This document shows, piece after piece, positions 926 through 49,649 of a stretch of DNA of 64,000 nt. The position numbers were made by a program, and so were the translations under genes. Under the pieces are notes generated by a model. That model had not been told where the DNA came from and searched no databases. It was given only the letters and a program-made list of their open reading frames with translations. The stretch spans positions 3,118,577 through 3,182,576 of the forward strand of contig NZ_KB731324.1 in the NCBI RefSeq assembly GCF_000353285.1, read 5' to 3'. The stretch's first letter is position 1. The number at the start of each line of letters is the position of its first letter. Origin of the DNA: Leptolyngbya boryana PCC 6306. Its GTDB lineage: Bacteria > Cyanobacteriota > Cyanobacteriia > Leptolyngbyales > Leptolyngbyaceae.

Positions 926-1047
926 AACCACCTTCTCTAGACCGTGAGCTAGCGTAATCCCTGGAGATAGATTTGAAATCTTGCCAGAGCAGGAAGTTTG
1001 TCAGCCTGGAACTCTCTAATTTGAAAGAGTCGTATTTTTATTCAGCA

Positions 1048-1722
1048 ATGCGAATTCTGCTCGTTGAAGATGATCCTGAACAACTCGAACCCCTCCATAC
1101 CGCACTATCAGAGGTTGGGCATATTGTTGATGCGGTGCAGAACGGCGAAATCGCGCAGTGGATTTTGTCGCAGCGTCACTATGATCTGCTCATTCTGGAT
1201 TGGATGCTGCCCGAGGTGAGTGGAATTGATCTCTGTCTGGGCTACCGCAGTGCTGGAAAAACTTCACCTGTGCTCATCCTCACGGCAAAAGACACGACGA
1301 GCGATAAAATTACTGGCTTAGATGCGGGAGCCGATGATTATCTCGTTAAGCCTGTTGATGTGTTTGAATTGCTAGCACGAGTTCGGGCATTGGGCAGACG
1401 CTCTCCACTGTGGCAAGGGGAAACGCTTCAAATCGAAGACCTCATGCTTAACTTAACCACGCTCTCCATAGAACGTCACGATCGCGCTATTCAACTTTCA
1501 ACCCGAGAATTTCAACTGCTAGAATATCTCATGCGTCATCCGCGTCAAGTTCTGAGTCGAGATCAGTTAGAGCACGCGTTATGGGAGTGGGGTGATGAAC
1601 CAGAGAGTAACGCAATCACTGCCCTTGTGCGGCGACTCCGGCAACGTTTAGAATCCCTTGAAGTTGCAGACTGGATTGAAACCGTTTATGGCATGGGCTA
1701 TCGTCTGAGTCCGAAAGTATAG
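1048..1722 (+). CDS. rppA: OmpR-family response regulator, RppA/NrsR-like
   Basis: The 224-residue protein has a receiver domain (acidic pair D8/D9, phospho-acceptor D51 in LLILDWMLP, Lys in YLVKP) and a C-terminal winged helix ending in ETVYGMGYRL. The helix contains WEWGDEPESNA, which I recall from cyanobacterial RppA regulators; those and NrsR respond to redox or metal signals. The start is the ATG before RILLVEDD; the open frame extends upstream to 973 but that stretch is not protein-like. The partner kinase starts 15 bp downstream. The name is by resemblance only; the signal sensed cannot be read from the sequence. Confidence 0.8.
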   Translation: MRILLVEDDPEQLEPLHTALSEVGHIVDAVQNGEIAQWILSQRHYDLLILDWMLPEVSGIDLCLGYRSAGKTSPVLILTAKDTTSDKITGLDAGADDYLVKPVDVFELLARVRALGRRSPLWQGETLQIEDLMLNLTTLSIERHDRAIQLSTREFQLLEYLMRHPRQVLSRDQLEHALWEWGDEPESNAITALVRRLRQRLESLEVADWIETVYGMGYRLSPKV

Positions 1723-1737
1723 GAGGTTGAGCCGTTT

Positions 1738-3054
1738 ATGTTCACGCGCAGCCGTCGGAATCTTTCTCGTTGGTTTATGCTTTCAATGGGAAGTATTCTG
1801 ATGGTCTTTGCGGTTACTCGCTATTATCTGACTGCGATCGAGCGCTTGAAGTATCTCGATCAACTGCTGTATAAGAAGGCTCAGGTCGTTGCCGCGACAG
1901 TACAGTACAAGCAGCGAGACGGACACCGCCAAATTGACTTCAGAAATGTTCCGTTTCTAGGAGAGTCGCCGTTGCCCCCTGGAAGTGATGCCGTGTATGC
2001 ACGATGGTATGACCCACAAGGACGATTACAGCAGTTTTTTGGAATTGCTTCGCCGCCTGCAATGTTAGAAGATGTTCCAGAGTTACACACGCTGACGATT
2101 GATGCGGGACTCTTGAGCGGTGCCGATGGCGTTGTGCAAAGCGCTGATCAACTGATGTTAGTACGGCAGATTACGCTGCCTGTGCAATATCGAGGGCAAA
2201 TGCTAGGCTACTTGCAAGTTGCAGTTCCCCTTGCCCCCTTACAAAGAGAATTACAGCAAGATTTACTGATATCTTTGATCTCGATTCAAATTGCCCTGAT
2301 TGTGATTGTGGTGACAGCATGGGCATTAAGCGGCGTGGCAATGCAACCAATTCAGGAGTCGTATGATCACTTGCAGAAATTTACAGCAGATGCGTCTCAC
2401 GAACTCCGAACCCCGCTTGCCGCAATTTTAAGTAACGCTCAAGTTGGATTGCTTGCTCCAATGGAAAAGGGAGAAAGCAAGCATCAACGCCTCGAAAAAA
2501 TTGCTGCGACTGCGAAATCAATGACGGTTTTAATTAGCAATCTGCTCTTTTTGGCAAGGCGTTCTGGTCGGATTACTGATGAAGCCCTACAACCGACAGA
2601 TTTGGGTCGCGTCCTACAAGAACTGATCAAAGAATCGACGATTCGGACGGTTGCTCAGCGGGTTCAGTTGAGTCTAGACTTACCCGAACGCGCTGTCACG
2701 ATTCATGCAGACCCAGAACTCCTAAAGCAAGCGATCGCGAATCTGATCACGAATGCCTGTAAGTATACGCCTGCGGATGGAACAGTGAATCTCAGGCTGT
2801 TTGTTCAGTCTCGTCAAGCGATCGTACAAGTAGAAGACACGGGCATTGGAATTCCAGCTGAGCACCTGCCGCATATTTTTGAGCGATTTTATCGGGTCGA
2901 TCAGGATCGCTCTAGAGACCGAGGAGGAACAGGGTTAGGGCTTGCGATCGCCCAACAAATTATTACGGCACATGGCGGAACGATTACCGCTCGAAGTTCA
3001 GTTGGACAGGGTTCAGTATTCCAAATTGTGCTTCCGCTCCAGTCCTCTATCTAA
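1738..3054 (+). CDS. rppB: Sensor histidine kinase, RppB/NrsS-like
   Basis: This 438-residue kinase has an N-terminal membrane helix (about 13-30), an extracytoplasmic domain of about 140 residues, a second helix (about 178-198), a HisKA domain with H221 in [13 protein letters not shown] and a HATPase domain with N, G1 (DTGIGI), F (FERFYRVD) and G2 ([10 protein letters not shown]) boxes. The AGGAGG ribosome site overlaps the stop codon of the regulator, so the two genes form an operon. The architecture and the LSGVAMQPIQ linker match cyanobacterial RppB/NrsS-type kinases. The ligand is unknown. Confidence 0.8.
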   Translation: MFTRSRRNLSRWFMLSMGSILMVFAVTRYYLTAIERLKYLDQLLYKKAQVVAATVQYKQRDGHRQIDFRNVPFLGESPLPPGSDAVYARWYDPQGRLQQFFGIASPPAMLEDVPELHTLTIDAGLLSGADGVVQSADQLMLVRQITLPVQYRGQMLGYLQVAVPLAPLQRELQQDLLISLISIQIALIVIVVTAWALSGVAMQPIQESYDHLQKFTADASHELRTPLAAILSNAQVGLLAPMEKGESKHQRLEKIAATAKSMTVLISNLLFLARRSGRITDEALQPTDLGRVLQELIKESTIRTVAQRVQLSLDLPERAVTIHADPELLKQAIANLITNACKYTPADGTVNLRLFVQSRQAIVQVEDTGIGIPAEHLPHIFERFYRVDQDRSRDRGGTGLGLAIAQQIITAHGGTITARSSVGQGSVFQIVLPLQSSI

Positions 3055-22167: not shown

Positions 22168-22716
22168 CAGGCTTGGCAAAAATAATAGCAGGTTTCATCT
22201 ATCTTAATGCTTTGCTCTCATTCATTGACTCGGCTTGGCACTACAATCAAAGCAATCTAGTTCTGAGCAAGCCCCTATATCCTGCGCAATCAACGGGTTG
22301 CGGTTTTTTCCGTGTTGATGAATTTGTCTAAAAGCTCCTGATGGTCTGAGCTTCTACCGTTTCTATCTAAAATGGCTCAAGTTTTTTTTTGAGAAACCCC
22401 AAGAAAGACGACCGGAAATTCATTACACCCGAATCTATTCTGCTTTTCGGCGTTATGAGGCATAGGGAGGTTTCGATGTTATTTTCGCAGGGTCAGTTTT
22501 GCATCTTCATCAGCAGGAGGTGCTTGATCTTGGCATAATTCACAGCAATAGGACAACGACTCTTTTTTTGCGACACACCCTCATTGCTCGACTGAATCTA
22601 TGCGTCCGACAATGCTCAACAAATCTATAAGATAACAAGGTTTGATTCGGGTTAGCCTTAGCGTAGGAAGGCTGTATCTGTCAGAATTCCTGTTCTATTG
22701 TTGCGGCTAGCGAGTT
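22168..22716. other. 549-bp leader region of the regulator operon; structured
   Basis: No gene of usual size is seen. There are several short hairpins: ATCAACGG/CCGTGTTGAT near 22289-22319, AAGCTC/GAGCTT at 22333-22353, and AGCCTT/AAGGCT at 22654-22673. A run of nine T ends the first group at 22382-22390. A 20-codon ORF with GGGAGG upstream starts at 22476. It could hold a small RNA or a leader. Confidence 0.35.
22476..22538 (+). CDS. 20-codon micro-ORF upstream of the regulator operon
   Basis: GGGAGG (22465-22470) precedes ATG 22476 by 5 bases; the frame encodes 20 residues including two Arg before a Cys and stops at TAA. It is a weak candidate for a leader peptide. Confidence 0.2.
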   Translation: MLFSQGQFCIFISRRCLILA

Positions 22717-25083
22717 ATGAAAATTCTACTCATAGAGGACGATTCGCTAATTTCTGAACCGCTTGTCAAGGCTTTGACTGATCAACACTATGTCGTAGAT
22801 GTTGCAACTGATGGGCAGGTTGGATGGTCACTATTGGAATCCTTTACCTATGACTTAGTTTTGCTAGATGTAGTATTACCAAAATTGGACGGCATTAATT
22901 TATGTCGAAAACTACGGTCACAAGGAAATCAGACTCCCATTCTTTTATTAACGGCTCAAAATGCTAGCACAAACAAAGTGACGGGGTTAGATGCTGGGGC
23001 AGATGACTACGTGCCTAAACCATTTAATTTGCAGGAGTTGTTGGCACGTATTCGGGCTTTACTTAGACGAGGCGGCGCTGCCTTACCTCCCTTGCTGAAA
23101 TGGCGAAATTTAGAGCTTGATCCCAGTACCTGCGAAGTGAGCTGTAATGGTAAAATCGCGCGGTTAACGCCAAAAGAATACAGTCTGCTAGAGTTATTTC
23201 TCCGCAACCCACATCGCATCTTTAATACGGGTGCGCTGATTGATCACGTTTGGTCATTTGAGGAAACCCCAAGCGAGGATACTATCCGCTCCCATATCAA
23301 AGGACTACGGCAAAAACTGAAAACAGCAGGGCTTCTAGGTGATCCGATCGAAACTGTTTATGCTATTGGCTATCGGCTTAGATCTCCAGAGGAAAATCAG
23401 AGAGAAGGCAAGAAACAAAGGAACAAAGAGACAAAAAGCGAAGACGAAAGCGCACCGACGATCGCAACACAAACCACTACTGCTGGGATGAACAGCATCT
23501 GGAATGAGGTTAAAGAGACTGTTGCCCATCGAATTGCAACTGTTGAGCAGGCAGCAGCGCTGTTGCTACAAAACAAACTGAATCCAGAATTGCGGCAGCA
23601 AGCTGAACAGGAGATCCATAAGTTGGCAGGGTCGCTGGGTATGTTTGGCGCAGATCAAGGCTCTCGATTAGCCCAAGAAATTGAACCGCTTTTCCAAAAA
23701 GGGCGATCGCTGACTCATCACGAGATGCAGCAACTCTCTAAACTTATCACTGCTTTGCGTCAGGAGCTAGAACACTTGGATGCTGAGCATTTAACGAACG
23801 AGCAGCAAACAGGCACTTCAGTTAGTGAACCAATTGATCAACGTCCTTGGCTACTGATTGTCAGCTCAAATTCAACCCTCACCGCACAATTACAGGAAGC
23901 ATCGCCTAGTTGGGGTTTACGAGTTCAGGTCATTGCCAATCCCGTTACTGCTAGAGAGCAGATTTCTGAAACGCATCCCGATGTTGTACTCCTTGATTTT
24001 GCTGTTACTGCTAGCGCAAATAACTTCATGTTGTTGTCCGAACTCAGTGCTTGTACGCCACCAGTGCCTACATTAGTCTTGACCCAGCAAGATAAATTAA
24101 TCGATCGAGTCAGGATCGCCCGGTTAGGTGGACGTTGGCTTCAACAGCCTGTCACTGCACCTCAAGTCTTAGAAGCAGTCAATCAAGCGCTGCAACATGC
24201 CCGTCCAAGGCAAGCCAGGGTACTGGTTGTAGATGATGATGCGCAAGTATTAGTGGCACTTCAGCGGTTACTCATTCCCTGGGGGCTTCATGTTTCGGTC
24301 CTCGACAATCCACTTTCATTTCTAGATGTTCTGGAAGCGAATCCGCCTGATCTGCTGATTCTGGACATTGAAATGCCACACATTAGCGGAATCGAACTCT
24401 GTCAGGTTGTTCGCAATGATTCGCGCTGGAGTAATCTGCCGATTCTATTTCTCACAGCTCATACGGATGCTGAAACCATGCATCAAGTCTTTGCTGTGGG
24501 CGCAGATGATTATGTGAGCAAGCCGATCATTGGACCAGAGTTAGTAACACGGATCTTTAATCGATTAGAGCGCACTCATTTCCTCAAGAGCTTAGCAGAG
24601 ATTGATGCGCTAACTGGCATCGCAAATCGCCGCAAATCTACCACAGCATTAACTCAGTTACTTGAGTGGTGTGATCAGTGCCAGCAGCCATTTTGTTTAG
24701 CGCTGATAGAGTTAGCTAATCTAAAGGACATCAATCAGCAGTATGGTCATGCAGTCGGAGACGAAGTGTTAGCGCGCTTCGGAGAATTATTGCGGCGATC
24801 GTTCTGCAATGAAGATGTTGTCGGTCGTTGGGGCGGGACAGAATTTGTTATCGGTATGCCTGGTATGACTAAAACGGATGGAAGTCAACGTGTTTTTGAT
24901 TTTCAGCAATCCTGGCAGCAGTTTAAGGTGGAGGTGAGTGGAACTTCGTTGCACGTCAGCCTAAAACTAAAAGTTGTTCAGTATCCTCAAGAGGGTGCGG
25001 ATCTTCAGTTGTTATACCAAGCCGCCCGCTCTAGCTTAAATGAGGCTGAGAATTTGACGCGCTCTGAGGAGCATCCACAATGA
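22717..25083 (+). CDS. Multi-receiver regulator: REC, winged helix, Hpt, REC, REC, degenerate GGDEF
   Basis: The 788-residue protein has, in order: an intact receiver (1-120), an OmpR-type winged helix (130-223, ending [12 protein letters not shown]), a charged linker, an Hpt domain with H301 in [13 protein letters not shown], a pseudo-receiver (375-495), an intact receiver (500-620, [19 protein letters not shown]) and a GGDEF-type domain (629-780). In the second receiver the acidic pair is replaced (IVSSNS) and the conserved Lys is Gln (LQQP). The GGDEF signature reads RWGGTEF, so a cyclase with this change is probably inactive. It overlaps the next gene by ATGA. Confidence 0.9.
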
Positions 25084-28000
25084 AAGCGCCATTACCAGAC
25101 AACGAATCTGATAGGCTGAATGCTCTCCAACAATACAACGTTCTAGATACTATTTCTGAAGCTGCATTTGATGATTTAACTCAGCTAGCAGCATTTATCT
25201 GTGGTACGCCAATTGCTTTAATTAGTCTAATCGATGATTGTCGTCAGTGGTTCAAATCTAAATTTGGGTTGGAGGCTACAGAAACGCCTCGTGATGTTGC
25301 ATTCTGTGCCCATGCTATCTTGCAGCCTAGCGATGTGTTGATTGTTTCAGATACGCTCCAAGACGATCGATTTGCGACGAATCCTCTTGTAACAAGTGAG
25401 CCTCATATCCGATTTTATGCAGGCGCACCGCTCATTACTTCAGATGGCTATTCCCTGGGAACGCTTTGTGTTATCGATCGCATTCCTCGGCAGCTCAATT
25501 CTGATCAGATTCAAGCCTTACAAGCCTTGAGTCGTCAGGTCATTTCTCAACTAGAGTTACGACGTAATTTGGTTAGGGTGGAACAAACAACAACCGAATT
25601 GCAGCAAGCAGAGCAAACTCGCATCCAGCTTCTTGCCCAAGAGCAGGCTGCCCGCAATCAGATTACAGATATCTTAGAGAGTATTACTGATGCTTTTTTT
25701 GCGTTAGATCACGATTGGCAGTTTACTTATCTCAATCGGCAGGCAGAGTTGTTGTTGCAACGAAAGCGAGAAGCCTTGCTGGGGAAAGTTTTATGGGATG
25801 AGTTTCCAGAAACGATCGATTCAACTTTCTATCAGGAGTATCAGCGTGCTATTGCAGAGCAGATTAGTGTTCGATTTGAAGCATTTTATCCACCTTTGAA
25901 CCAGTGGACTGAGGTTTATGCCTACCCTGCCAAAGATGGGTTATCGGTCTACTTTCGTAACATCAATCAACGGAAAGAAGCAGAGCGAACGCTACACGAG
26001 ACACTGACATTCCAGCGAGCGATTTTAAACAGCGCGAACTACAGCATCATCTCGACTAACGTTGAGGGCACGATTCTTACCTTTAACACCACAGCAGAGC
26101 AATGGCTCGGTTATACAACCGCAGAAATTATTGGACAAACAACGCCTCTATTGATTCATGACTGGCAGGAAATTGTGCTGCGATCGCAAATGCTGTCACA
26201 GGAATTAGGAGAACGAATCGAGCCAGGATTTGATGTATTTATTACCAAGGCACGTCGTGGCGTAATCGATGAGTATGAGTGGACTTACATTCGCAAAAAT
26301 GGTTCGCGCTTTCCTGTGTTATTGTCAATCACAGCGCTCAAGAATGCAGACGATCAGATTACAGGATTTTTGGGAATTGCTAGCGACATCACCGAGCGAA
26401 AAGCGGCTGAAGAGCAACTTCGGAATTTAAGTAAGGCGTTAGAAAGTGCGATCGAAGCAATTGCTCGATTAAATACACAAGGACAATATGTTCAAATCAA
26501 TCTCGCCTATGCTGCGATGTTAGGCTATCAGCCTGAAGAACTATTAGGCGTGAAATGGCAGCAAACAGTTCACTCAGAGGATATTGCTGTTGTAGAGGTT
26601 GCCTATCAGCAAATGCTGGAGCATGGTAAGGCGGAAACAGAAGCAAGAGCGATTCGCAAAGATGGCGGCGTTCTCGATAAGCAAATTGTGATGGTAAAAG
26701 CCTATGACCAGCAGCAGCAGTTTAACGGTAACTATTGCTTTGTAAAAGACATCAGTGAGCGACGTGAAATTGAGCGCATGAAGGATGAATTTATTTCAAT
26801 CGTGAGTCATGAACTCAGGACTCCGCTCACCTCAATTTCCGCTGCTTTGGATCTCTTAGCTGAAGGCGTTTTGCAAAATCAGCCCGAAGACGCGCAACAA
26901 ATGCTGCAAATTGCTGCAAACAACACCGATCGATTGGTGCGCCTGATTAATGATATTTTGGATATTGAGCGGATTGAGTCTGGCAAAATTGTCATGACTA
27001 GACAAGTCTGCGACGCTGCTGATTTGATCAATCAATCGGTAGAAGCCATTCAAGAGATTGCAGAACAAGCCGAAATCACGCTCTCGATCGCGCCGCTCAC
27101 AGTTCGTCTTTGGGCTGACTCCGACCGAATAATTCAAGTCCTAACAAACTTACTCAGCAATGCGATCAAATTCTCCTCTCCTGGTAGCACAATTTGGTTG
27201 AGCGCAGAATTAATCACCAATGAGGCTTTAGAAGCCAACTATAATCAGGCTGGAGAAGATCAGCAAAGTTCTGCCAACTGGCTTCTCATCAAAGTCATCG
27301 ATCAAGGACGTGGTATCCCATCCGATAAACTAGAATCCATCTTTGAGCGCTTTCAACAAGTGGATGCTTCGGATTCACGTCGTCGAGGAGGTACTGGATT
27401 AGGATTAGCGATCTGTCGCAGCATCCTTCAGCAACATGAAGGAAAAATCTGGGCAGAAAGTACATTAGGAATGGGCAGCACTTTCTGTTTTACCTTACCG
27501 ATTCTTAATGCTTCTGAAAGTTCGCAGAATTTAAGTTTGATGTCCGACTTAGTCGATTCGGCACTAGATACCAAATCACAAACTCCGCTGGTGTTAGTTT
27601 GTGATGATGATGCTTCGATTCGCAAAGTGGTGCGAGTGATGTTGGAGCGGCAGGGCTATCAGGTGCTGACAGTTGCTTCAGGACAGGAAGCTGTAGAACA
27701 GGCACGTGCCCATCAGCCGAATGTGATTTTACTGAATCTGCTGATGCCCGGTATGAATGGATGGGAAACGTTGACAGTTTTGAAACAGCAATCTGAAACG
27801 CAGGCTATTCCTGTCATTATTCTGAGTGGACTGCTACCCGATGCTAGAGAGGCACCTTATGATGGCGTGAGTGATTGGGTCGTAAAACCGCCAGATCCTA
27901 GAGTGCTCCGGCAAGCACTCGATCGAGCTTTAGTCAATCAGACCCAATCTTTGAAAGTTTTGATTATTGAAGATGATTTGGATTTAGCGCAAGTTCTCAC

Positions 28001-28355
28001 AACTTTATTGTCTCGCTATCACATCGAAACATTTCACGCTCAAACCGGACGAGATGCGATTCAACTCAGCCAGCAGGTGCTTCCTGATCTGCTAGTCCTT
28101 GACTTAGGACTACCGACTGATGATGGTTTTGCTGTTGTAGACTGGCTGCGTCAGCATAATCGCCTCTGCCAAATGCCGTTGGTCATTTATACGGCTCGCG
28201 ATCTAAATGACGATGAACGGGAACGGTTAAGACTCGGGCAAACCCTATTTTTGACCAAAGGACGCATTACTTCACAAGAATTTGAGCAGCAGGTGATTAA
28301 TCTGCTCAACCGAATGATTCGATCAAAGGCAGGAGACAGTCTCGATGACGACTAG
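25080..28355 (+). CDS. Hybrid histidine kinase: GAF, three PAS, HisKA, HATPase, two REC
   Basis: The 1091-residue cytoplasmic protein has a GAF domain (residues 20-165), three PAS domains (195-310, 310-445, 450-560), a HisKA with H576 in [18 protein letters not shown], a HATPase (670-810, with [18 protein letters not shown] and TGLGLAIC) and two receivers. In the first receiver (835-950) the phospho-acceptor is Asn886 (VILLNLLMP) instead of Asp, so it cannot be phosphorylated there. The second (960-1080) is intact (LLVLDLGLP). No membrane helix is present. It overlaps both flanking genes (ATGA at 25080, and 11 bases with the next). Confidence 0.92.
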
Positions 28356-28722
28356 ACACATTTTGATTATTGATGATGAATACGATATTCGGGCAGTGGC
28401 TCAACTCACTTTGAAGACGGTAGGGGGTTGGGAGGTATCGAGCGCTTCTTCTGGTCACGAGGGAATTGCCAAAGCAGCCAGCGAGCAGCCAGACGTGATC
28501 TTGCTCGATGTCATGATGCCTGAAATGGATGGAATCGAAACCTTTCGTGCTCTTCAAGCGAACCCAACAACTCAGGCGATTCCGGTCATTTTGATGACTG
28601 CAAAGGTGCAAGCGGCGGAGCAACGGCGATTTGCAGAACTAGAGGTGGCAGGAATGATCACGAAACCTTTTAAGGCAATGAGACTGCCAGAACAGATTTC
28701 CAAGATACTCGGTTGGAGCTAA
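28345..28722 (+). CDS. Stand-alone receiver protein
   Basis: The 125-residue protein is a single receiver domain with IIDDEYD, phospho-acceptor in [16 protein letters not shown] and ITKPFK. It has no output domain, like CheY or Spo0F, and so probably shuttles phosphate in the relay. It starts within the end of the hybrid kinase gene (11-base overlap), so translation is coupled. Confidence 0.9.
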
Positions 28723-28861: not shown

Positions 28862-29146
28862 GTGAACTCCCTAACTCTTCGTCACTTGAGCGCTCTCCTC
28901 TACCCGATTCGACAACGACTAGAGTCGATCGAAATTTCTAATCCTCAAACCGCACGATCGCTCTGCAAAATCATCCCGGCTCGTTGTCCGTTTGAACGGC
29001 AAATCAAACTGTTTGATTACACGCTTGTTCGGATTCCACCGCTTTGTAAATTAAATCCCTTCTACGATCAAATCGTCAGTCTTCGCTTTAAATCTTTAGT
29101 TTATCTAGCAGACCAGTGTGGCGAAGATGTAACGCTTTATTCTTAG
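28862..29146 (+). CDS. Mo-dependent nitrogenase C-terminal-like small protein
   Basis: The 94 residues match the cyanobacterial family annotated as Mo-dependent nitrogenase C-terminus: RLESIEISNPQTARSLCKII, CPFER, IPPLCKLNPFYDQIV, FKSLVYLADQCGED. The motif order and four Cys are typical. The family is found as free-standing short proteins and its role is unclear. The start is GTG at 28862. No nitrogenase structural gene is nearby. Confidence 0.8.
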   Translation: MNSLTLRHLSALLYPIRQRLESIEISNPQTARSLCKIIPARCPFERQIKLFDYTLVRIPPLCKLNPFYDQIVSLRFKSLVYLADQCGEDVTLYS

Positions 29147-29190
29147 CTCCATTTTGTGGGGAAGGGGTTCTCTCTAAAACTGAGGTTCTG

Positions 29191-29853
29191 ATGCCAACAA
29201 CACACACACCCGAAGAAATTCCAGCAATGCTCCTCAAACAGCCTTGCTCCTCAGAGCATTTGACAAATGGTGATAAAAATAAATCGATTAAAATGCCACA
29301 AAATGATGCATCAGATCAAGCTCGTCTAAATCAGGGTCGAGTTGCGATCTTTGTTGACGGTTCAAATTTATTTTATGCTGCTTTACAGCTTGGAATTGAG
29401 ATTGACTACTCAAAGCTACTGGGTCAACTCACTGCGAACTGTCGACTACTGCGAGCTTTTTTCTATACAGGTGTCGATCGTACCAATGAAAAGCAACAAG
29501 GTTTTTTGCTTTGGATGCGTCGTAATGGTTACCGAGTGATCACAAAGGATCTGATTCAATTGCCAGATGGTTCCAAAAAAGCGAACTTGGATGTCGAAAT
29601 TGCGGTAGATATGCTAACTTTGGCAGACCACATCGATACTGTTATCTTAGTCAGCGGTGATGGAGATTTAGCCTATGCTGTCAATTCCATTGCTTATCAA
29701 GGCGTTCGTGTCGCTGTCGTCAGCTTGCGCTCAATGACAAGTGATAGCTTGATCAATGTTGCTGACTCCTACATCGATCTTGACACAATCAAGGAGAACA
29801 TTCAAAAGCCTACTGGTGCTGGCTATACAGACTGTGTCACTAGGACCACATAA
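29191..29853 (+). CDS. NYN-domain protein, LabA/DUF88-like
   Basis: After about 50 disordered residues, residues 50-205 form a NYN (PIN-like) domain: VAIFVDGSNLFYAA, KANLDVEIAVDMLTLAD and LVSGDGDLAYAVN hold the conserved Asp residues of a putative metal-dependent ribonuclease site. LabA in Synechococcus, of this family, affects circadian gene expression. ATG 29191 has GAGG 5 bases upstream; a longer frame begins at 29116 but overlaps the previous gene. Substrate unknown. Confidence 0.8.
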   Translation: MPTTHTPEEIPAMLLKQPCSSEHLTNGDKNKSIKMPQNDASDQARLNQGRVAIFVDGSNLFYAALQLGIEIDYSKLLGQLTANCRLLRAFFYTGVDRTNEKQQGFLLWMRRNGYRVITKDLIQLPDGSKKANLDVEIAVDMLTLADHIDTVILVSGDGDLAYAVNSIAYQGVRVAVVSLRSMTSDSLINVADSYIDLDTIKENIQKPTGAGYTDCVTRTT

Positions 29854-31288: not shown

Positions 31289-32508
31289 TAGGGCAAACGC
31301 ATGAAAATTATTGAGACAGGATTTTGAGAAGATAACCATCATCCCATCCCGCCTTTTTTCGTTTCGCTGCAATGCCTGCCTTCGTCGTTTTGTCTTGTCC
31401 TAATAAGTTGAGCGCAATGTGACGCAACAGGGAAAAGTTTTGCGGTGCGTAATCCTTGCGGATACGGCAAGCATCTTCATCAAAAGCAACGTCTAACACC
31501 CAGTGCAAATGGCTTTCCACCGTCCAATGGGTGCGGATGGCAGCTAAGAGTTTCGCCGCGTCTGGGTCGAGACTACTGATGTAGTAGTGCGTTTCGCTGC
31601 TCGTTTGTCCCTCAATTTTGCGTTCGCGCTGAAGCATTACTACGGTCTTCAGTCCTTTCCACTGCGGCTTCTGCATCAAATAATCCAGTTCTGTGTCTGC
31701 CAACGTCCAGCACCGCCGAATCTCAATGCGTCCGTGTCCTTTGTCTATCGTTTGCACAAAGTCATGCGCGACATCTTGGAATTGCACGGCTTGAGCTTGC
31801 TCAAATAACCACTGCACATCTTCAAACAAGCTGCCTTGATTGCCTTTGAGAGCAAGCACATAGTCTGCACCGCGCTCAATGATTGTCGCAGCGATCTCTT
31901 TCTGTGTCCCCATCGCATCAATCGTGACGATACAGCCTTCGAGAGCTAGGACTTCTAGCAATTCTGGAATTGCTGTAATCTCATTCGACTTTGCATCGAC
32001 TTTCTGTTGTCCTAACACCAAGCGATTCTCACTTGCCCAAGCACTCACCATATGAATCGCACCTTTGCCGTTGGCAGTATCATAAGAGTGGCGCACCTTC
32101 TTGCCATCAATGGCGATGACTTCGCCCTTACTCAAGGTGCTAATGGCACGAATCCAACCCAGAAAACATTGCTGCATCGCTTCTGGGTCAAGTCGAGCAA
32201 ACACCCGCGCAAATGTATCATGCGACGGAATGCCGTTCGGCAACTTCAGAAAACTGCTCAACCACGATTGTTTCGATTGCCCATACAGTTCGATATCCAC
32301 CCAACTCTCTGCCCCACAGATGACGGCACAAATCGTGATTGTGATGATGTCGATAAGTAAATGATCTTTGCCACGCTCATCGCGAGGGTCTGCCAAATCA
32401 GCAAAGTGCGTGAGAATCCGCGCATCCGTAGGTTGAGTCATGAGCAGTGTCTCTCAAGCGGGTTACACTGCTTTTAGCCTACGTCACTTTTTTCTTGCGT
32501 TTGCCCTA
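31289..32508 (-). mobile_element. Complete ISAs1-family insertion sequence
   Basis: The element is 1220 bp. Its ends are inverted repeats starting TAGGGCAAACGCA on both sides (31289-31301 and complement of 32496-32508). It is flanked by a perfect 10-bp direct repeat GATGCGAGGT at 31279-31288 and 32509-32518, the target duplication. A single uninterrupted transposase gene fills it. The intact ends, duplication and reading frame suggest a recent insertion. Confidence 0.95.
31308..32441 (-). CDS. ISAs1-family DDE transposase
   Basis: The 377-residue protein has the N-terminal DDE-associated domain (FADLADPRDERGKDHLLID, ICGAESW) and the catalytic core with GEVIAIDGKKVRHS, IVTIDAMGTQKEIA and TVESHLHWVLDVAFDEDACR, which carry the DDE triad of the ISAs1 group. 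No stop or frameshift interrupts it, so the element could still move. Confidence 0.95.
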   Translation of the reverse strand: MTQPTDARILTHFADLADPRDERGKDHLLIDIITITICAVICGAESWVDIELYGQSKQSWLSSFLKLPNGIPSHDTFARVFARLDPEAMQQCFLGWIRAISTLSKGEVIAIDGKKVRHSYDTANGKGAIHMVSAWASENRLVLGQQKVDAKSNEITAIPELLEVLALEGCIVTIDAMGTQKEIAATIIERGADYVLALKGNQGSLFEDVQWLFEQAQAVQFQDVAHDFVQTIDKGHGRIEIRRCWTLADTELDYLMQKPQWKGLKTVVMLQRERKIEGQTSSETHYYISSLDPDAAKLLAAIRTHWTVESHLHWVLDVAFDEDACRIRKDYAPQNFSLLRHIALNLLGQDKTTKAGIAAKRKKAGWDDGYLLKILSQ

Positions 32509-47574: not shown

Positions 47575-48249
47575 TCATACCCGAAGTCGGTAGCCGACTC
47601 CTCGAACGGTTTCGATCGTTTCACTTCCCAATTTTTTTCGCAATTGTTTGATGTAAGCATCAATGATGTTCGAGCCGGGATCATAGGTGTATCCCCAGAC
47701 TCGATCAAGTAGTTGTTCTCGACTCATCACCTGCATCGGGTGACGGAGAAATACCTCGGCTAAGGCAAATTCTTTAGAAGACATTTCGATCAAGGTGCTG
47801 CCTCGCCAAACCTGCCGCGTGAGCAAATCCAGCACAATTTCGCCCGCTTGAAACGTTGTTTCTTTGCCTGCTTTACTTTTGAGAATCACGCTATCTCTCA
47901 ATTGCACTTTCACGCGAGCAAGAAGTTCTGTAAATTCAAACGGTTTAGTCACATAGTCATTCGCGCCACCTTCTAAGGCTGCGACTGTATCTTCCACTTC
48001 ATCCTGTGCTGTGAGCACAATGATTCGCAGTCGTTCACCTCTACCTCGTACTTCTTCCAAGACTTGCCAACCGTTTTTTCCTGGAAGCCCTAAATCTAAA
48101 ATCAGTAAATCAAAATCATGGCTGTGTGCCATGCCGATCGCTTCATGCCCATTCGTTGCGATCGTGCAAGTAAATCCATTTGCTCGAAATCCCTTCTCTA
48201 AAAAGGCTGCAATTCGCGATTCATCTTCTGCAATTAAGATTCGATTCAT
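47575..48249 (-). CDS. OmpR-family response regulator
   Basis: The 224-residue protein has a receiver (IAEDES, LLILDLGLPGKNG with the phospho-acceptor Asp, YVTKPFE) and a winged helix (SSKEFALAEVFLRHPMQV, VWGYTYDPGSNIIDAYIKQL, VRGVGYRLRV). It resembles regulators of the CusR/MprA type, often linked to envelope or metal stress. Start ATG 48249 overlaps the kinase stop by one base, so the two genes are translationally coupled. Confidence 0.88.
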   Translation of the reverse strand: MNRILIAEDESRIAAFLEKGFRANGFTCTIATNGHEAIGMAHSHDFDLLILDLGLPGKNGWQVLEEVRGRGERLRIIVLTAQDEVEDTVAALEGGANDYVTKPFEFTELLARVKVQLRDSVILKSKAGKETTFQAGEIVLDLLTRQVWRGSTLIEMSSKEFALAEVFLRHPMQVMSREQLLDRVWGYTYDPGSNIIDAYIKQLRKKLGSETIETVRGVGYRLRV

Positions 48250-49649
48250 CAATGCGTTCCTCGCAACGGCAATGTGATTGTAAACGTCGAACCTTCTCCA
48301 AGTCGGCTACAGAGATCGATATGACCTTGATGAGCTTTGATAATGGCTTGTACGATCGATAATCCCAAACCTGACCCTTCAGATCGTCGCTCACTATTTG
48401 ATCCACGCGCAAACCGATCGAAAATTCGAGCTTGATCATCGAGATCAATTCCTTCACCCGTGTCTCTGACCCAAAATCGGACGGTTTCTTCAACAATTGC
48501 AGAACCAATTGCAATCACATCGCCTTTTTGCGTGTACTGGCTTGCATTCTGAGCGAGATTGAGAACGGCTTGGGTGATGCGTTGTCGATCGCAGAAAACT
48601 TCTCCCGTTCCAACCGATTCAAGTTTCCAGCTTCGATCTGCCAATGCCTCAGCTTTCGCAAAAATTTCTTCTGTTAAGGTTGCGACATCATAGTGATCTG
48701 CTCGTAAGAAGTTCGGACGCTCAATTCGCATCAACAAGAGTAAATCACTGACAAATCGATTCATCCGTTTGAGTTCGTCTCGGACAAGCGCGATCGTTTC
48801 TCGGCGCTCCTCTGGATCGTCTCCGAGTAATTCTAGATGTCCTTGAATGATGGTGATCGGCGTTCGCAGTTCATGGCTCACGTCTTTGATGAAATCTTGC
48901 TGGCTTGTGAATGCGGCTTGAAGTCGATCGAGCATCTGATTAAACGTGAGCGTGAGTTCAGCAATCTCGTCTGTTCCTTGAACTGAGAGCCGTTGAGTGA
49001 GATCCGTTTCGCTGATGTTTCGAGCCGTTTCTGTCACTTGGCGCAAAGGAGACAGGATTTTTCCAGCCGTGAGCCACGCGATCGCGCTAAACAAAATCAG
49101 CCCAACTAAAGTCACTTGCACGACAAGTCTCAGCGTTAGCTCTGCCATGTGATACTGCATCGTTGCATCATGCACCGCAATAATTCTTCCTGGTTGCCCA
49201 TTCAGCGGACGCATAACTGAGACGAGATAACCATCAAGCTGCTGAGGAGCATTTTCAGGGAGTTGCTTCCAGCGATCGAGTACAGCTTGGTTGTTTTGGA
49301 CAAATTGCGCAGATTGTGGAGTATGGAGAATCTGACCCTTAGAGAAGACCAGTAGATAACGGTTTGGAGTCGAAACTTGACGGCTTGAGAAGGTTTGAAT
49401 TGCTTGTGTTAGCGCTTCTGGATTGGAAGGTTGAACGCTAGACTGCTCAAATGCTTGAATGTCTCGTTGAAGTTGTCCGCCTAGCTCTTTCTGAGTCGAG
49501 TCACAAAAGATTTTATACGTCGCGTAAACTGAAACAAAAGTAATGCTAGCCGTCAGTAGAAAGTACCAAGCCAAAATCCGCGATCGCACACCGACAAAGC
49601 TCTGCTGCTTTCGAGACTGTTTCATTGCAACCCGTCGATGATGCGACAT
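48249..49649 (-). CDS. Sensor histidine kinase with HAMP
   Basis: The 466-residue membrane kinase has two helices (about 25-45 and 180-200) with a 135-residue extracytoplasmic domain between, a HAMP domain (residues 200-255), HisKA with His in [14 protein letters not shown] and a HATPase (NLAQNASQYTQ, DTGEGIDLDD, FARGSNSERRSEGSGLGLSI). It lies head to tail behind ccdA and a thioredoxin-like gene, so the sensed signal may be envelope thiol or redox state. Start ATG 49649 is 11 bases from GAGG; ATG 49625 is possible. Confidence 0.88.
   Translation of the reverse strand: MSHHRRVAMKQSRKQQSFVGVRSRILAWYFLLTASITFVSVYATYKIFCDSTQKELGGQLQRDIQAFEQSSVQPSNPEALTQAIQTFSSRQVSTPNRYLLVFSKGQILHTPQSAQFVQNNQAVLDRWKQLPENAPQQLDGYLVSVMRPLNGQPGRIIAVHDATMQYHMAELTLRLVVQVTLVGLILFSAIAWLTAGKILSPLRQVTETARNISETDLTQRLSVQGTDEIAELTLTFNQMLDRLQAAFTSQQDFIKDVSHELRTPITIIQGHLELLGDDPEERRETIALVRDELKRMNRFVSDLLLLMRIERPNFLRADHYDVATLTEEIFAKAEALADRSWKLESVGTGEVFCDRQRITQAVLNLAQNASQYTQKGDVIAIGSAIVEETVRFWVRDTGEGIDLDDQARIFDRFARGSNSERRSEGSGLGLSIVQAIIKAHQGHIDLCSRLGEGSTFTITLPLRGTH

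Follow-up and report, generated by a model that had tools for sequence, protein, structure and literature searches.

Two receiver (REC) domains and one GGDEF domain, encoded in a three-gene operon of Leptolyngbya boryana PCC 6306, lack key residues and are under purifying selection. The operon lies on the forward strand of a window of 64,000 nucleotides (the whole stretch of DNA analysed; contig NZ_KB731324.1 of assembly GCF_000353285.1), to which all coordinates refer. It encodes a complex response regulator (protein 1), a hybrid histidine kinase (protein 2) and a stand-alone receiver (protein 3). The altered modules are probably kept as non-catalytic parts, that is, as built-in control rather than decay; comparison with related sequences favours this, as a clade has the changes in common and purifying selection acts on the modules. 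By analogy, the whole is read as an RcaC-like phosphorelay that would end in a transcription factor and use the altered modules as selected non-catalytic parts, a reading that in our judgement has an even chance of being correct.

The genes and domains, derived from open reading frames, Pfam and alignment, are as follows.

22717 to 25083, + strand: protein 1, complex response regulator REC1-OmpR winged helix-turn-helix (wHTH)-histidine phosphotransfer (Hpt)-REC2-REC3-GGDEF, 788 amino acids (open reading frame, Pfam)
22723 to 23055, + strand: REC1, intact (E7, D8, D51, T79, K101; Pfam; full residue set in 53/56 relatives)
23158 to 23379, + strand: OmpR/PhoB-type winged-helix DNA-binding domain (Pfam Trans_reg_C)
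23500 to 23763, + strand: Hpt with phosphotransfer His H301 (Pfam; His in 55/56 relatives)
23848 to 24186, + strand: REC2, pseudo-receiver (S383, S384, Q477; D427 and T456 kept; Pfam, alignment; full set in only 10/56 relatives)
24214 to 24570, + strand: REC3, intact (D506, D507, D550, T580, K602; alignment; full set in 54/56 relatives)
24595 to 25062, + strand: GGDEF without metal ligands (E665, T708), I-site Arg absent (C697), N673 and D682 kept (Pfam 107.6 bits, alignment)
25080 to 28355, + strand: protein 2, hybrid histidine kinase GAF-PAS-PAS-PAS-HisKA-HATPase-RECa-RECb, 1091 amino acids (open reading frame, Pfam)
26778 to 26984, + strand: HisKA domain with H577 (Pfam, alignment)
27117 to 27503, + strand: HATPase catalytic domain (Pfam)
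27591 to 27920, + strand: REC-a, pseudo-receiver with N886 at the acceptor position (Asn in 19/19 clade rows, Asp in 12/12 sister rows)
27957 to 28304, + strand: REC-b, intact receiver (E964, D965, D1008, T1038, K1060; alignment)
28345 to 28722, + strand: protein 3, stand-alone receiver, intact (D10, D11, D55, T85, K107), 125 amino acids (open reading frame, Pfam)

The genes for proteins 1 and 2 overlap by four bases (ATGA at 25080) and those for proteins 2 and 3 by 11 bases at 28345. Pfam identifies three REC stretches, Trans_reg_C, Hpt and GGDEF in protein 1; GAF, PAS, HisKA, HATPase_c and two REC in protein 2; and one REC in protein 3. The total is six receivers, one Hpt and one kinase core. 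The frame coordinates and the Pfam results agree on these points with a first-pass annotation made from the letters of the sequence. The full key-residue set is present in REC1, REC3, REC-b and protein 3.

The residue changes named in the first-pass annotation were likewise located. REC2 matches Response_reg without three key residues and is classed as a pseudo-receiver: the acidic pair is replaced by S383-S384 and the Lys by Q477; the acceptor D427 and T456 remain. REC-a, a Response_reg match without one key residue, is also a pseudo-receiver. Its residue 886 is Asn instead of the acceptor Asp (codon AAT, 27735-27737), and D842, D843, S916 and K936 are present. The GGDEF motif reads GGTEF, with T708 at the metal-binding acidic position and E709 kept. 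The loss goes deeper than had been stated, because Glu (E665) also replaces the second metal-site Asp, and Cys (C697) the I-site Arg. Protein 1 therefore lacks the residue set of an active diguanylate cyclase (GG[DE]EF and the DxD metal acids; T708, E665) and the RxxD of an I-site receptor for cyclic di-GMP (c-di-GMP), with C697 in the place of Arg and D700 kept. N673 and D682, which we take to be the counterparts of the guanine contacts of PleD, are retained.

Relatives of protein 1 were first aligned in 59 rows (window included; eight duplicate loci left out beforehand) and later in 56 full-length rows; the tree has 55 rows, L014 being left out (no REC2). The operon belongs to a clade of 19 operons from 19 genomes, 17 of them represented in the 56-row alignment beside 39 others. 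At the acceptor position of REC-a, Asn is found in 19/19 clade rows and Asp in 12/12 sister rows, a single change on a tree from which those columns were excluded. The pocket is otherwise kept in the Asn rows (DD1 19/19, DD2 18/19, Ser 19/19, Lys 19/19). Position T+1 is Gly in all 19 Asn rows and Val or Ile in all 12 Asp rows (L114-L125), and Trp stands at K-3 in all 31 rows of both types. In BldM, a branched Val at this position may stand in the way of phosphorylation, according to excerpts of a review (PMC12632262). By analogy, REC-a may be a poor phosphate acceptor in both branches by two routes, because of Asn886 in one and the branched T+1 residue in the other.

A REC2 change special to this operon is not supported, since only 10 of the 56 relatives have the full REC2 set, compared with 53 for REC1 and 54 for REC3. 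Gln in place of the REC2 Lys occurs in 7/17 clade members versus 1/39 others; the acidic pair is lost in 16/17 clade members and D427 kept in 14/17. The metal position of the GGDEF motif is acidic in none of the 17 clade members, where it is T, G, R, A, V or S, versus 22/39 others. The second metal Asp is kept in 2/17 versus 24/39 and the I-site Arg in 4/17 versus 21/39. E709 is kept in 13/17 clade members, N673 in 17/17 (37/39 others) and D682 in 17/17 (35/39 others). The two clade members outside the 56-row alignment (L030 and L166) also read GGTEF, and the GGDEF domain is degenerate in all 19 clade operons. Because the same states recur across the clade relatives, the altered residues are not due to chance.

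Selection was estimated as the ratio of nonsynonymous to synonymous change (dN/dS; Nei-Gojobori), from seven pairs among five close relatives for protein 1 and from five pairs for the kinase; saturation affects some synonymous distances, which are above 1. In protein 1 the values are 0.041-0.087 for REC1, 0.063-0.092 for REC3, 0.050-0.242 for REC2 and 0.133-0.372 for GGDEF. In the kinase they are 0.031-0.131 for REC-a and 0.064-0.162 for REC-b, so that REC-a is about as constrained as the live receiver beside it. The first-pass annotation had proposed a domain search of relatives and held that normal residues in all their modules would point to decay in one strain. The search found the changes conserved across the clade, with purifying selection on the modules, and decay in one strain is rejected.

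Gene linkage was evaluated at the 56 loci with a full-length relative of protein 1. A kinase and a lone receiver follow downstream on the same strand at 32 of them. The order regulator, kinase, lone receiver is kept on one strand in 18 of the 19 clade operons; the remaining one (G186) is divided between two contigs (L085, L176). Two clade members (L013, L088) have a gap of more than 2 kb between regulator and kinase, and in L092 the kinase is split into two frames. Twelve sister loci have an Asp-type REC-a; ten of them, all but L120 and L121, were retrieved with their flanks. At nine of these ten (L168, L169, L170, L171, L172, L173, L174, L175, L177) regulator and kinase form one fused frame, with two receivers in the same frame and a lone receiver after it; the tenth, L167, has separate genes. 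In four of the nine, Pfam places REC, Trans_reg_C, Hpt, PAS, HisKA and HATPase in one chain, with no GGDEF. A further fusion (L052) looks alike in Pfam but is without the two kinase receivers of the nine. GGDEF labels assigned to some kinases and fusions by our own profile were not used, as Pfam finds PAS and no GGDEF in the five fusions checked.

Because regulator and kinase are fused at 9/10 sister loci, proteins 1 and 2 probably work together; the fusions are the best evidence here that they act on each other. Conserved gene order and fusions support the coupled phosphorelay first described for this locus; a branched course, with the dead modules as binding or gating elements, was suggested there as a possibility. 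It is quite unlikely that proteins 2 and 3 serve other regulators and are linked to protein 1 incidentally. The genome is receiver-rich (parts of protein 1 give 159 matches at E<=0.001), and for 22 of the 55 tree relatives a same-strand search over 4.5 kb turned up no kinase; both points would suit incidental linkage. The gene order kept in the clade, the four-base and 11-base overlaps and the natural regulator-kinase fusions argue for a single relay.

Several observations weigh against the reading of a relay with selected non-catalytic modules. Constraint on REC2 and GGDEF is in general weaker than on the live domains of protein 1. The GGDEF state changes seven times on the tree, which indicates repeated degradation or loss; GGDEF is absent from the five Pfam-checked fusions and REC2 is unrecognised in most fused frames, so neither is needed everywhere. 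Position 778 near the C-terminus of GGDEF is Lys in only 6/17 clade members versus 19/20 intact members, which disfavours tight nucleotide binding. At 20 of the 56 loci neither a kinase nor a lone receiver is in same-strand reach, some of these being contig ends. In Anabaena, the REC1 pseudo-receiver of CdgK can be deleted without a phenotype, as described in excerpts of PMC9927289. It is possible, if on the unlikely side, that the modules are left over from an ancestral regulator whose cyclase and receivers worked, and are kept only for folding or spacing. The dispensable CdgK domain (PMC9927289) would fit such vestiges, as would the GGDEF domain, the least constrained measured (0.133-0.372), with a metal position that varies freely in the clade and absent from shorter relatives and fusions. 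Against this, all dN/dS values are far below 1, the REC-a pocket is kept and the domain is about as constrained as live REC-b, and N673 and D682 are found in 17/17 clade members.

We consider it unlikely that some altered modules are still active, be it through deamidation of N886 to Asp followed by phosphorylation, slow use of D427 in REC2, or a working GGDEF cyclase. REC-a does retain Ser and Lys beside the acidic pair, its T+1 residue is a small Gly, and D427 and E709 persist in 14/17 and 13/17 clade members. Reversion from Asn to Asp at the acceptor site is reported for one receiver, and 16% of receivers without the Asp have Asn there (excerpts of PMC4395418); some activity may persist in receivers altered at DD, T or K (excerpts of PMC12632262). 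On the other side, Asn is fixed in 19/19 rows, the REC2 acidic pair is gone in 16/17 clade members, and both GGDEF metal ligands are altered in the window, with the motif position acidic in 0/17 of the clade.

A link between receiver-bearing kinases and degenerate GGDEF domains was also considered. Where a kinase is in reach (33 tree rows), an intact GGDEF accompanies 0/18 kinases with receivers versus 9/15 without; among the 15, the kinase of L085 is cut by a contig end and the nearest kinase of L147, 1.5 kb off, is perhaps not its partner. With two independent pairs on the tree the link is not significant, and common descent fits as well. Degenerate GGDEF is not tied to the Asn itself, because L095 and L167 pair it with a D-type kinase.

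The analysis shows the anatomy, the clade-wide conservation, purifying selection, gene linkage and the natural fusion of protein 1 with protein 2; each phosphotransfer step, the gating and the nucleotide binding are inferred, as are the signal and the target genes. Protein 2 would autophosphorylate on H577 and pass the phosphate to its own REC-b, to D55 of protein 3, or to both. From there it would reach H301 in the Hpt of protein 1, and then D51 of REC1, which would set the DNA-binding form, and D550 of REC3. The kinases of the same operon type at L089 and L090 have no receivers, so phosphate can go first to the lone receiver; this suggests, by analogy, that it is the basic acceptor, as RcaF is, and that REC-b is an added one. 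REC-a, with N886, lies between the kinase core and the true receiver and may be an unphosphorylated kinase gate, as in ShkA. REC2 could serve as a packing or adaptor receiver beside REC3, as in PleD. The GGDEF domain would have no cyclase activity and might act as a dimerisation and perhaps guanine-nucleotide-binding module. An extension of this scheme to a guanine-nucleotide-gated transcription phosphorelay seems to us very improbable: the non-catalytic GGDEF, its base-pocket residues kept, would read guanosine triphosphate (GTP) or (p)ppGpp and set DNA binding, with the Asn receiver as the matching kinase gate and possibly a slow deamidation switch. If it were true, dead signalling domains would read phosphorylation and nucleotide state together, as a conserved integrator of the two.

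The combination of winged helix, Hpt and dead GGDEF in one protein had at first been called an unusual mix; it is not. Relatives of protein 1, full-length or nearly so, were found in 50 of 291 genomes of the class at E<=1e-190 and in 24 of 42 family genomes at E<=1e-150, the own genome included in both counts. Winged helix, Hpt and GGDEF joined in one protein are thus a standing cyanobacterial type, and the operon is more interesting for its conservation than for its rarity. Among named relatives the closest found is Cyanobacteria bacterium FACHB-63, with 89% identity over protein 1, and named Leptolyngbya strains carry plasmid-borne relatives. The own genome (7.26 Mb) holds two further full-length paralogues, L153 on contig C1 with an intact GGEEF and L145 on contig C3 with a degenerate GSGEF. 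In another relative (L148, G025:C13) a stop codon divides the protein into a REC-wHTH-Hpt frame and a REC2-REC-GGDEF frame. No paper on this regulator/kinase/receiver architecture was found in a literature search in which most subscription papers were beyond reach, which is no proof of absence.

Upstream DNA of seven relatives is alignable only over about the last 100 bases, among near relatives, and no repeat element was identifiable in it. The well-aligned stretch directly 5' of protein 1 (22600-22716) suggests a conserved promoter or operator. A gene for an NYN-domain protein (29116-29853) and one for a DDE transposase (31308-32441) lie 3' of the operon. Two more ordinary pairs of OmpR-type regulator and kinase are present in the window, at 973-3054 and 47575-49649.

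The mechanisms that activate or inactivate bacterial pseudo-receivers are still a mystery, according to the abstract of a 2025 review (PMC12632262). The family described here is a natural experiment, with one clade-fixed change from Asp to Asn, a kept pocket and Asp-bearing sister kinases. It also offers receiverless kinases in the same type of operon, regulators whose GGDEF is either intact or degenerate, and fusions of the regulator with the kinase. Its distinctive points are the clade-wide Asn receiver with the pocket otherwise kept, the non-catalytic GGDEF with its base-pocket positions, and the kinase-regulator fusions.

The operon presumably resembles the RcaE/RcaF/RcaC relay of Fremyella diplosiphon (chromatic acclimation), with protein 1 having, as we take it, the RcaC layout plus a second, altered receiver and a GGDEF. 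RcaC has the order REC-OmpR-Hpt-REC with the key residues D51, H316 and D576, which are close to D51, H301 and D550 of protein 1. Pfam finds the layout REC-OmpR wHTH-Hpt-REC in protein 1, and the partner kinase and lone receiver adjoin it. The likeness to RcaE-RcaF-RcaC, one of layout, extends to the series of kinase, small receiver and DNA-binding regulator. RcaE acts on RcaC via RcaF, a small receiver without output domain (excerpts of PMC8256508 and PMC8739951). The differences are the added GGDEF, a GAF-PAS-PAS-PAS kinase with two C-terminal receivers, and the L-box, for which the window has nothing above chance (nine matches with up to three mismatches, 9.29 expected). The literature search, which covered few subscription papers, found no paper on RcaC domains.

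CdgK-CdgS of Anabaena sp. PCC 7120 has the same kind of two-receiver hybrid kinase, the first receiver being a dispensable pseudo-receiver, and feeds an Hpt; in contrast to the present operon, CdgK bears its own Hpt, and CdgS is, as described in the excerpts, an active cyclase without a DNA-binding domain (PMC9927289). The Asp-less receiver of RitR has Asn at the acceptor site, like REC-a (excerpts of PMC4395418); RitR has also lost an acidic residue (Lys10), whereas REC-a retains the rest of the pocket.

PleD combines receiver, pseudo-receiver and GGDEF in one chain, and the packing of its receiver and pseudo-receiver controls dimerisation (excerpts of PMC12632262). All three are present in protein 1, in the order pseudo-receiver, receiver, GGDEF; the order in PleD is the opposite, and protein 1 has lost the metal ligands and gained OmpR and Hpt. 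The structure models are weak (mean predicted local distance difference test (pLDDT) 62.0 and 69.2, predicted TM-score (pTM) 0.35 each); only the protein 1 model was searched, and single-domain folds were used. Its best match is PleD 2wb4 (E 3.3e-24, 22% identity), with a TM-score of 0.30 on the target and a root-mean-square deviation of 20.8, so that the match concerns domains only. To judge from structure titles, PleD structures with ppGpp and pppGpp exist. The kinase core of protein 2 is matched by the structure 6qrj of ShkA from Caulobacter crescentus. In ShkA a pseudo-receiver between the catalytic domain and the true receiver holds the kinase off until c-di-GMP binds (excerpts of PMC7010744 and PMC12632262). 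REC-a has the same placement in protein 2, the likeness being one of domain placement.

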